From Psychrobacter raelei (lineage in GTDB: Bacteria; Pseudomonadota; Gammaproteobacteria; Pseudomonadales; Moraxellaceae): a stretch of DNA of 64,000 bases. Shown one piece after another: positions 24,679 to 26,848 of the stretch (position 1 is its first letter; the number at the start of each line of letters is the position of its first letter). The notes beneath the pieces were generated by a model. It saw only the letters and a list, made by a program, of their open reading frames with translations, made no database searches and had not been told where the DNA came from. Position numbers and translations under genes: made by a program. The stretch is from the NCBI RefSeq assembly GCF_022631235.3, contig NZ_CP093310.2, positions 2,232,001-2,296,000 on the forward strand, in the 5' to 3' direction.

Positions 24679-24854
24679 CTATCATGCTAAGTACACGCAA
24701 ACTATCGAGGTTTGCGCATCGTTTTATAGGGAGATAACCGTTATAATACGCCAAAATGACTGATTTTTTTAGCCAGGCTGTGGTTTTTCAACCGTCTTTG
24801 CCTGCTGCTAATATCTTTACTCTTATAACGCCAATAGTGGACGATTTTTTTAAT

Positions 24855-25646
24855 ATGAGCGCTGAGACTACCCCAAACACCCCAAATATAGACAACTCAC
24901 AAACCTCTGAAGCCAATGACGCCGCCTACCCGCGCCTCATCAAAACCTTTATGAAGCGCCGTACCCACCTTAACAAAAATGCCGAGCAAGCCCTAACTGA
25001 TCCTGTTTATGCCAAGTATATCGTCAATACGATGGATGACAGAGGCCAAGGCCTTATTGAGGACATCACAGACTTGCGCGCTTTATTTGCTGATACGCAA
25101 CAAACCCCTAACGGCCCAGATGCACCGCTGACCTTTGAGATTGGGTTTGGTATGGGGGGATCACTGATTGAGATGGCCAAAGCTGATCCCACGCGTAACT
25201 TCGTGGGCATTGAAGTGCATGAGCCGGGTATCGGTAAATGTGCCTTTACCGCTGACGAGGAAGGTCTAAGTAACCTTAAGATTATCAACGGTGATGCCAT
25301 CGCCCTAATGCAGCAGCTGCCTGAGAATCATATTGACCGTATTCAGCTGTACTTCCCCGATCCATGGCAAAAAAAGCGCCATTATAAACGCCGCTTTGTA
25401 AGCCCCAAGCGCATGCAAATTGTCACCCGAGTACTTAAAACCGGTGGCTGGTTCCATACGGCAACAGACTGGGAGCATTATGCGTTTTGGATGTTAGAGG
25501 TACTCGATAACTTTGAGGGGCTGACCAATACGGCAGGCGAAGGTAACTTTACGCCGCGCCCTGACTTTCGTCCTTTGACCAAATTTGAAAAACGTGGCAT
25601 CGATAGAGGTCATGGGGTATGGGATTTGATCTACACTAAAGACTAA
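24855..25646 (+). CDS. trmB: tRNA (guanine-N7-)-methyltransferase TrmB
   Basis: SAM-dependent enzyme that makes m7G46 in tRNA. Visible signatures are the SAM site [11 protein letters not shown], the acidic VGIEVHEPG strand, and the family motif [16 protein letters not shown], with YTKD at the C-terminus. The frame is open from an ATG at 24756, but that start falls about 9 bases after a TATAAT (24742-24747) and adds 33 untypical residues. The ATG at 24855 gives 263 aa, closer to the family, so I use it; the longer form cannot be excluded. The DnaA-box region lies downstream. Confidence 0.92.
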
Positions 25647-25716
25647 TACGCCATCGTTTTTAACCCATAAACAAAAAAAACAATTCACTTTTAGTATTGT
25701 CATCATCGTGAAACAT

Positions 25717-25774
25717 CTGCCAAAAATAGTCCTTAACAGCCTTGAAAATACTGGTTTTTTATATTTTTTGGCAG
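25717..25774. repeat. Imperfect inverted repeat downstream of trmB
   Basis: CTGCCAAAAATA (25717-25728) and TATTTTTTGGCAG (25762-25774) pair over 12 bp with one bulged base around a 33-base loop. It may be the trmB 3' end structure or part of the DnaA-box locus. Confidence 0.45.
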
Positions 25775-25874
25775 ATTTATTAATTTTTTGTAGCGCCATG
25801 CCATTTTTTCCAAACTTTGATAAGTTGCTTGTAAGCTATGCCAGACAAGGGCGTGCGGACTTTTCCCCATATGC

Positions 25875-25895
25875 TGTGGATAACTCTGTGGATAA
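25875..25895 (-). promoter_or_regulatory. Tandem perfect DnaA boxes
   Basis: Two copies of TGTGGATAA (reverse complement of the consensus TTATCCACA), at 25875-25883 and 25887-25895, 12 bases apart and in the same orientation. The spacing is close to one helical turn, which favours side-by-side DnaA binding. Confidence 0.8.
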
Positions 25896-25980
25896 CTGGG
25901 TGTTTGACAACTGATACCCTAGAGCCATTAGGGCTTTAGGTAAAATTGTTCATTTTTTATACAGTTATTTTTTACATAAA

Positions 25981-25993
25981 AATCAAATACTTA
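25981..25993 (+). promoter_or_regulatory. IHF-consensus site inside the DnaA-box region
   Basis: AATCAAATACTTA matches the IHF consensus WATCAANNNNTTR at every defined position. A second copy with one mismatch starts at 26021. Both lie in the AT-rich core between the tandem and the single DnaA boxes. Confidence 0.55.
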
Positions 25994-26095
25994 TGTAGAT
26001 AATTGTTTTTATGCTGTTCTAATCAAATTTTTTGGGCGCAAAATGTATAAAATAAGTTAATGTTTCACAGCTTGACCCATGGGTCTTTTTTTCTC

Positions 26096-26104
26096 TGTGG
26101 ATAA
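26096..26104 (-). promoter_or_regulatory. Third perfect DnaA box
   Basis: TGTGGATAA, followed by CTGG as at the second box, about 200 bases from the tandem pair and in the same orientation. Confidence 0.75.
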
Positions 26105-26359
26105 CTGGCTATTTTAGCGTTTGTCCGGTTGACTTTTTTCAGCGTATCAGCTTTGTGCGTTATTGGCTAATGATGATTAACTCGCTATTAAAAGCGGGTT
26201 AACTGACCTTTAAAACCGTAGGTTTTATTATTTCAATTGGCTTTAGGTATTGCTATGCATTGGCATGCATTGTTATGTTTTGATCAGTATGGCAGATATT
26301 GGAGTTTAGTACTCCCAGTTAGCTTGAGTGTTAGCACAAGGCTTAATTAAGGCTTTTTT

Positions 26360-26848
26360 ATGAAATTACGAATTCTAAGTGTCGGCAGTAAAATGCCTAA
26401 ATGGATTGATACTGGGTTTAATGAGTATCACAAACGTATTCAGCCGATGTTGACTACCGAAATGGTCGATTTGGCCGCTGCAAAACGCGCCAAAAACCCC
26501 TCAGAAGCCAATCTAGCGCAGTATCGTGAGCAGGAAGGAAAAGCCATTTTGGCCACCCATCAAAGTAACTCACGTGAGAAGCTTTGGGTGCTCGACGTTA
26601 AGGGTAAGATGCTATCGACCGAACAGTTAGCCGATAAGCTCAGTGAAGCGATGCAAGTTGGTGACGATGTGGCATTGGTGATTGGCGGTGCTGATGGGGT
26701 GTCACCTGAGGTACTGGCCGCAGCGGACTTTAAGTGGTCATTATCACCATTAACCCTGCCCCATCCCTTGGTACGTGTGGTATTGATGGAGCAGCTTTAT
26801 CGAGCAATGAGTATCAATAACAATCACCCTTATCACCGCGGTAATTAG
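26360..26848 (+). CDS. rlmH: 23S rRNA pseudouridine(1915)-N3-methyltransferase RlmH
   Basis: SPOUT-class methyltransferase acting on helix 69 of 23S rRNA in the assembled 70S ribosome. The start MKLRILSVGSKMPKWI, the SAM-knot motif GGADGVSPEV and the C-terminal NNNHPYHRGN are diagnostic of RlmH (YbeA). The 162 aa length is normal. AAGG lies before the ATG. In many bacteria it is linked to rsfS and nadD; here it lies alone beside the DnaA-box region. Confidence 0.96.
   Translation: MKLRILSVGSKMPKWIDTGFNEYHKRIQPMLTTEMVDLAAAKRAKNPSEANLAQYREQEGKAILATHQSNSREKLWVLDVKGKMLSTEQLADKLSEAMQVGDDVALVIGGADGVSPEVLAAADFKWSLSPLTLPHPLVRVVLMEQLYRAMSINNNHPYHRGN

Follow-up and report, generated by a model that had tools for sequence, protein, structure and literature searches.

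The window analysed here is a 64,000-nucleotide stretch (C1:2232001-2296000) of the 3,129,790-bp chromosome of Psychrobacter raelei, which has dnaA at its start. A non-coding region within this window contains a conserved cluster of putative binding sites with the following features (window coordinates).

24756-25646, plus strand: trmB (TIGR00091), the constant upstream neighbour in Psychrobacter
25847-26000, plus strand: conserved non-coding DARS-like element, a conservation island among 21 aligned relatives with a weaker tail to about 26140
25847-25996, plus strand: match to model R1 (106.6 bits)
25861-25869, plus strand: putative DnaA box I, TTTTCCCCA, differing from TTWTNCACA at one position and facing box II head to head
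25875-25883, minus strand: DnaA box II, TTATCCACA, 5 bp from box I
25887-25895, minus strand: DnaA box III, TTATCCACA, 3 bp from box II
25904-25909, plus strand: conserved TTGACA, near the same place in 47 of 50 Psychrobacter elements
25948-25962, no strand assigned: Fis-consensus dyad GTTCATTTTTTATAC (GnnYAnnnnnTRnnC), the sole perfect match within 25840-26125
25981-25993, plus strand: IHF-consensus site AATCAAATACTTA, a perfect match to the consensus
26060-26069, plus strand: ATGTTTCACA block, which reads ATGTTTCACA or ATGTTTCACG in 48 of the 50 primary elements of the genus
26096-26104, minus strand: accessory DnaA box, TGTGGATAA or TGTGGACAA across the genus, in 43 of 50 primary elements at 218-221 bp from box II
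26360-26848, plus strand: rlmH (NCBIfam RlmH), the downstream neighbour in 10 of 46 loci

Along the window, the order of sites is TTTTCCCCA (25861) - 5 bp - TGTGGATAA (25875) - 3 bp - TGTGGATAA (25887) - GTTCATTTTTTATAC (25948) - AATCAAATACTTA (25981). The earlier note on this sequence had listed three perfect DnaA boxes (at 25875, 25887 and 26096) and a perfect IHF match, placed between trmB and rlmH; all of these sites were present, the three boxes on the minus strand, and the gene calls bore out their placement. A near-perfect box at 25994 (TTATCTACA) was also found as described but was not conserved, being restricted to the window among 50 primary elements. The tandem pair of boxes spaced by 12 bp recurs in relatives, but this description was incomplete, as the inverted box I had been overlooked together with the Fis-consensus dyad. 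With box I in place, the tandem pair becomes the core geometry of the DnaA-reactivating sites (DARS) of E. coli, the decisive features of the element being this head-to-head box and the Fis site.

The IHF consensus was used with a looser last base (R). Consensus sequences were otherwise those given in PMC8682772 (Fis and IHF) and PMC4585315 (Fis). The number of TTATNCACA matches in the window was ordinary (4 observed against 3.5 expected) and clustering, not box number, is the striking feature. Exact TTATCCACA occurred 54 times in 3.17 Mb of the genome, and by a Poisson estimate three exact copies inside 230 bp are expected about a few times 1e-4 per genome. IHF matches in the window were somewhat many (9 against 4.3 expected), a number reached by 2 of 100 shuffles. 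The ATGTTTCACA block is nearly invariant in the genus and may represent either an inverted DnaA box of weak match or, by its likeness to parS words, a ParB half-site. Shortly downstream of trmB, at 25715-25776, lies a perfect inverted repeat whose 12-bp arms are 38 nt apart.

Conservation and neighbours in Psychrobacter

The closest named relatives, judged by the element locus, are P. pasteurii, P. piechaudii, P. phenylpyruvicus and P. lutiphocae. Box spacings of 12 and 209 bp were identical in all four and at the same place, and a fifth relative (MAG bin11) carried the first two boxes only. A BLAST search of the 105 genomes of the genus with a 286-bp query (E <= 0.001) found matches in 102, part-length in some cases. 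Two of the genomes missed by BLAST (G064 and G098) were recovered by the model and one (G081) was not, giving a total of 104 of 105 that includes one genome (G086) matched over just 38 positions.

Neighbouring genes were examined for the best matches and for selected near-complete genomes. Of 46 primary loci, seven of them repeats of a place already counted, 45 had trmB ahead of the element; recA followed in 34, rlmH in 10, a contig end in one and other neighbours in one (L153), with the identity of RecA being confirmed at one locus. A perfect box within 2.5 kb upstream of rlmH was absent from 49 of 54 Psychrobacter rlmH loci. A tie of the element to rlmH was rejected on the basis that boxes occurred upstream of this gene in only 5 of 54 loci, trmB being the constant neighbour. 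Outside the window, at C1:2395151-2395300 (L160:4152-4301), the P. raelei genome has a second copy that is more diverged and is flanked by genes for a histidine phosphatase and a pfkB-type kinase. This copy was in the same place in three relatives, and a fourth relative (G046) also has a second copy.

Sites were counted in a set of 50 Psychrobacter elements, made up of 45 primary and five second copies, with distances to the Fis and IHF sites measured as gaps after box III. Box III fitted TTWTNCACA in all 50 elements, and the putative box I had one mismatch in 17 and two mismatches in 33. A perfect Fis consensus at +52 bp was present in 46 elements (shuffled mean 0.8) and a perfect IHF consensus in 42, with one mismatch in seven more (shuffled mean 0.1); the shuffling control used the portion of sequence after box III. 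The distances of 52 bp to the Fis site and 85 bp to the IHF site were kept in nearly all of the 50 elements. Mean identity in 30-bp intervals of 21 aligned recA-type loci was 0.85-0.88 for the core and the Fis dyad, 0.67 for the stretch between them and 0.64 for the IHF site. The tail, to about +270, had values of 0.5-0.6; sequence outside had 0.2-0.6, except for a 0.71 block at +360. A conserved small protein was rejected as the alignment contained indels and its conservation was motif-like.

Matches beyond the genus

A sequence-only model, termed R1, was built from 50 of 55 distinct Psychrobacter elements. As a negative control, 302,293 bases of the P. raelei genome, including the window, were searched: the two copies scored 107 and 93 bits and the rest no more than 18 bits. 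R1 matched 74 of 77 chosen genomes at E <= 0.1 (seven of the 77 being Psychrobacter), including all 16 genera drawn from the family. Among the 70 non-Psychrobacter genomes, 46 had an E of 1e-10 or better, as counted from the match table. An even draw of the order (Pseudomonadales in GTDB) gave matches at E <= 1e-4 in 162 of 194 genomes and 82 of 96 genera, and a draw of the class gave matches at the same threshold in 125 of 185 genomes and 120 of 177 genera; the P. raelei genome and a few relatives sit in both draws. At this threshold, 32 of the order genomes and 60 of the class genomes had no R1 match. Downstream neighbours outside of the genus included a transglycosylase, a metallo-hydrolase and others. 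The TTGACA motif was retained in most rows from the family and was mostly gone from the remaining order-level rows.

Box I was closer to the DnaA consensus in these matches than in the genus. The training rows of R1 had TTCTCCCCA or TTTTCCCCA at this position in 43 of 50 cases, and relatives carried TTTTCCACA, TTGTCCACA or TTATCCACA. Mismatches numbered zero in 12, one in 27 and two in four of 43 order-level matches (one of which, L226, is an outlying Psychrobacter), and zero in 10 and one in four of 14 class-level matches. Thus 39 of 43 and 14 of 14, respectively, had no more than one mismatch as compared to 0.15% of random 9-mers. As R1 was built on mostly TTCTCCCCA and TTTTCCCCA, this shift towards the consensus was not driven by the model. 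Among the 14 class-level matches, the Fis consensus was perfect in 10 and the IHF consensus in nine, and all 14 had the Fis site at 50-51 bp; the Fis and IHF counts at both levels are partly selected, since only the best-scoring matches were aligned (41 order-level and 13 class-level loci). Four family loci (L217, L218 and L219 of genus g15; L220 of genus g5) had a near-symmetric core with an extra box before box I and were matched by R1 on the opposite strand too.

The Fis dyad was further examined in the 43 order-level rows, on one of which it had itself been positioned. Dyad positions paired in 79% of cells as compared to 22-53% for slid versions, and the G-C pair of the Fis motif was invariant in 43 of 43 rows. 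The number of double-change cells and the covariation score exceeded shuffled alignments (reached by 3 and 0 of 500, respectively). Two of the five measures did not exceed shuffling, i.e. the number of pairs with double changes (411 of 500) and the number of pair types (150 of 500).

The P. raelei genome encodes DnaA, IHF alpha and IHF beta, two HU-like proteins and one Fis that is 45% identical to E. coli Fis. A Fis gene was present in 25 of 26 genomes searched, including that of P. raelei, the sole genome without a match being G151. This family genome also lacked an R1 match, and another (G154) kept Fis and had no R1 match.

Chromosomal position and fork orientation

The element is located 873 kb from dnaA, i.e. 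0.279 of the chromosome and mid-replichore. GC skew, sampled in stretches rather than over the whole genome, was positive in 16 of 17 stretches between 0 and 1.46 Mb and negative in 22 of 25 between 1.55 and 3.13 Mb. Within these samples the skew turned at dnaA, with a second turn near 1.5 Mb and none at the element. A cluster of DnaA boxes lies directly upstream of dnaA. Neither the skew turn nor the head-to-tail boxes of an oriC were found at the element, and the oriC possibility raised by the earlier note was rejected on GC skew as far as the sampled stretches tell. The note had named as evidence against its own reading a skew minimum and a coverage peak at dnaA combined with boxes that are not conserved between related species. 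The sampled skew turn does lie at dnaA; the boxes are kept across the genus and beyond, so that the second part fails.

The distance of the element from dnaA was 0.177-0.279 of the chromosome in 21 Psychrobacter genomes, and the IHF side faced the oncoming fork in all 21, on either arm. In 25 other genomes the element was found at 0.216-0.474 of the chromosome with the IHF side towards the fork in 22; the exceptions were G114, G265 and G423, and 14 of 17 genera conformed. No best match in these 46 genomes was nearer to dnaA than 0.177 of the chromosome. Orientation was counted for the best match per genome only (a second match in G113 would point the opposite way), with contigs treated as circular, many lengths rounded and relatives that are non-independent. 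The arm is uncertain for G377, in which the element is close to the far side of the chromosome.

Two other occurrences of DnaA boxes were noted on the chromosome. At C1:4036-4058 (L092), inside the recF reading frame, two perfect boxes face each other head to head across the 5-bp gap seen in DARS. A duplicated reading frame at C1:2601500-2602100 (L094), integrase-like by eye, contains two of the 54 exact boxes, illustrating that isolated DnaA boxes can be coding.

A putative compact DARS and its relation to E. coli sites

DARS boxes I and II are described as head to head, which is characteristic of DARS, and as essential, with box III assisting (PMC10380432 and PMC8682772). The element has this three-box core, with boxes I and II head to head and box III beside box II. 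The E. coli cores are TTATCCACT - 5 - TGTGGATAA - 3 - TGTGTATTA for DARS1 and TTATTCACC - 5 - TGTGGATAG - 3 - TGTGAAGAA for DARS2, with one mismatch in box I. A loose geometry rule (i.e. DARS gaps with up to 2, 1 and 2 mismatches in boxes I, II and III) was passed by one place each in the E. coli DARS1 and DARS2 regions, by no place in the E. coli datA region and, within the window, by this element only. A strict form of the rule gave one match in the 64-kb window and none in 238,293 sampled bases elsewhere in the genome, the second copy escaping due to two mismatches in box I. Sixty Markov sequences of 64 kb produced two loose and no strict matches.

R1 was applied to five other stretches (three from E. 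coli and two from P. raelei). The top match was DARS1 at 23 bits with the boxes in register. The DARS2 core scored 13.0 bits, below the recF pair of P. raelei (17.6 bits), another part of DARS2 (17.0), datA (14.4) and the P. raelei origin region (13.9). The geometry rule, and not R1, separates DARS from these others.

DARS2 requires IHF at IBS1-2 and Fis at FBS2-3 and exhibits position effects (PMC4245941). An IHF site downstream of the core and a Fis site are both present in the element as consensus sequences. Judged by its sequence, the element passes the structural definition of a DARS and appears to carry both of the helper sites by which the DARS2 type is defined. We consider it probable (roughly 0.78) that the element is a DARS2-type DnaA-reactivating site in a compact form with the order core-Fis-IHF. 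This reading draws on the orientation and spacing of the boxes, the Fis and IHF consensus sites, the wide conservation, the mid-replichore location and the presence of genes for DnaA, Fis and IHF. Protein binding, ADP release and an effect on initiation are predicted as follows. ADP-DnaA would occupy boxes I and II in a head-to-head arrangement, the protomer on box II being supported by box III, and Fis and IHF, bound at 52 and 85 bp after box III, would bend the DNA and shape the complex. ADP would then be released from DnaA, and the freed protein would rebind ATP and gain competence for initiation at the origin, which lies 873 kb from the element. Several observations count against the DARS2 reading: box I is weak in Psychrobacter, with one or two mismatches as compared to one in E. 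coli; the order of the IHF and Fis sites is swapped, and the E. coli DARS2 system is position-sensitive (PMC4245941); R1 does not single out the DARS2 core; 32 order and 60 class genomes gave no R1 match at E <= 1e-4; two of the five dyad measures did not exceed shuffling; and the order- and class-level Fis and IHF counts are partly selected.

The earlier note had named a 'datA/DARS-like control site' as a good alternative to oriC, of which the DARS half stands, as the core geometry rule was passed, and the datA half is disfavoured, as the datA region fails this rule. A datA-like site, at which an IHF site flanked by DnaA boxes promotes hydrolysis of DnaA-ATP or the cluster titrates DnaA, is an unlikely identity for the element. 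The minimal set for ATP hydrolysis at datA consists of boxes 2, 3 and 7 with one IHF site. The boxes at 25887 and 26096 flank the IHF site in the same relative orientation as the two perfect datA boxes, and datA contains a weak 14-bit R1 match. One of the two spacings differs (start-to-start box-IHF distances are 94 and 115 bp here and 97 and 65 bp in the datA region), and the box at 26096 is absent in 7 of 50 Psychrobacter elements and lies outside of the segment covered by R1 and detected outside of Psychrobacter. The conserved heart of the element is instead the head-to-head core with the Fis site. A legend of PMC10380432 describes datA with DnaA boxes and an IHF site and names no Fis site.

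Still less likely is an unannotated small RNA or a region through which DnaA, Fis and IHF control recA, rlmH or trmB. All three proteins act as promoter regulators, the element is upstream of recA or rlmH, and the TTGACA that follows the core is conserved in 47 of 50 elements. The downstream gene, however, varies (recA, rlmH and others, or a kinase at the second copy) whilst the element is constant, the best-conserved blocks are binding-site motifs at fixed spacing, and conservation, which drops after about +270, recovers only in discrete blocks closer to recA. A known RNA family was rejected, as an Rfam search of 25600-26400 was empty up to an E of 1. A second or cryptic replication origin, which the DnaA boxes, AT-rich stretch and IHF site resemble, is very improbable given that the sampled skew turns at dnaA, directly upstream of which there is a box cluster, and not at the element, and that the boxes are head to head, those of oriC being head to tail (PMC10380432).

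If the element is a DARS2-type site, replication timing may be controlled through DARS well beyond E. coli, in which DnaA recharging was worked out. A 150-bp module with a fixed DnaA/Fis/IHF geometry, matched in 162 of 194 order and 125 of 185 class genomes, would make DARS a general cell-cycle part in these bacteria. Its small size would also suit this module as a substrate for structural studies of the DnaA-IHF-Fis complex, and it would allow direct tests of DARS function in non-enteric bacteria, and the common fork orientation is a new and checkable constraint. A tentative extension, to which we give somewhat less than even odds, is that the compact core-Fis-IHF form is the ancestral and commonest gammaproteobacterial DARS, with DARS1 and DARS2 as rearranged or reduced descendants; its single fork orientation (IHF side first) and location away from the origin could allow fork passage or late duplication to help time recharging. 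As DARS have already been published for a number of gammaproteobacteria (PMC4451416 and PMC10380432), novelty is claimed for the compact variant and not for DARS in gammaproteobacteria as such. No description of this module was found in titles and abstracts of the open-licence literature on DARS, or on DARS or DnaA boxes in Acinetobacter, Pseudomonas and Psychrobacter. A 2014 paper gives the DARS2 core as specific to relatives of E. coli (PMC4245941).

Of the E. coli sites compared, DARS2 (rppH/mutH) shares with the element a non-coding core of box I, 5 bp, inverted box II, 3 bp and box III, a downstream IHF-like site in the same orientation, a Fis site and outlying extra DnaA boxes. On the E. 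coli map, DARS2 also has a similar relative distance from the origin (~0.2) and the same orientation to the fork, so fitting the IHF-side-to-fork pattern. The element differs from DARS2 in its weaker box I in Psychrobacter, in its neighbours (trmB/rlmH or trmB/recA) and in having core, Fis and IHF sites in this order within ~135 bp, whereas a sequence scan of E. coli DARS2 gave the order core-IHF-Fis over a longer region (IHF-like sites at 58 and 74 bp after box III, and a single perfect Fis match at 110 bp). DARS1 (bioD/uvrB) has the same core geometry but no perfect Fis or IHF consensus by scan, and on the E. coli map has the opposite orientation to the fork and does not fit the pattern. As in the element, the IHF site of datA is flanked by DnaA boxes, but datA lacks a place with the DARS core geometry. 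As the order core-Fis-IHF is not the E. coli order, the element is filed as a putative DARS2-type DARS and not as DARS2 itself.
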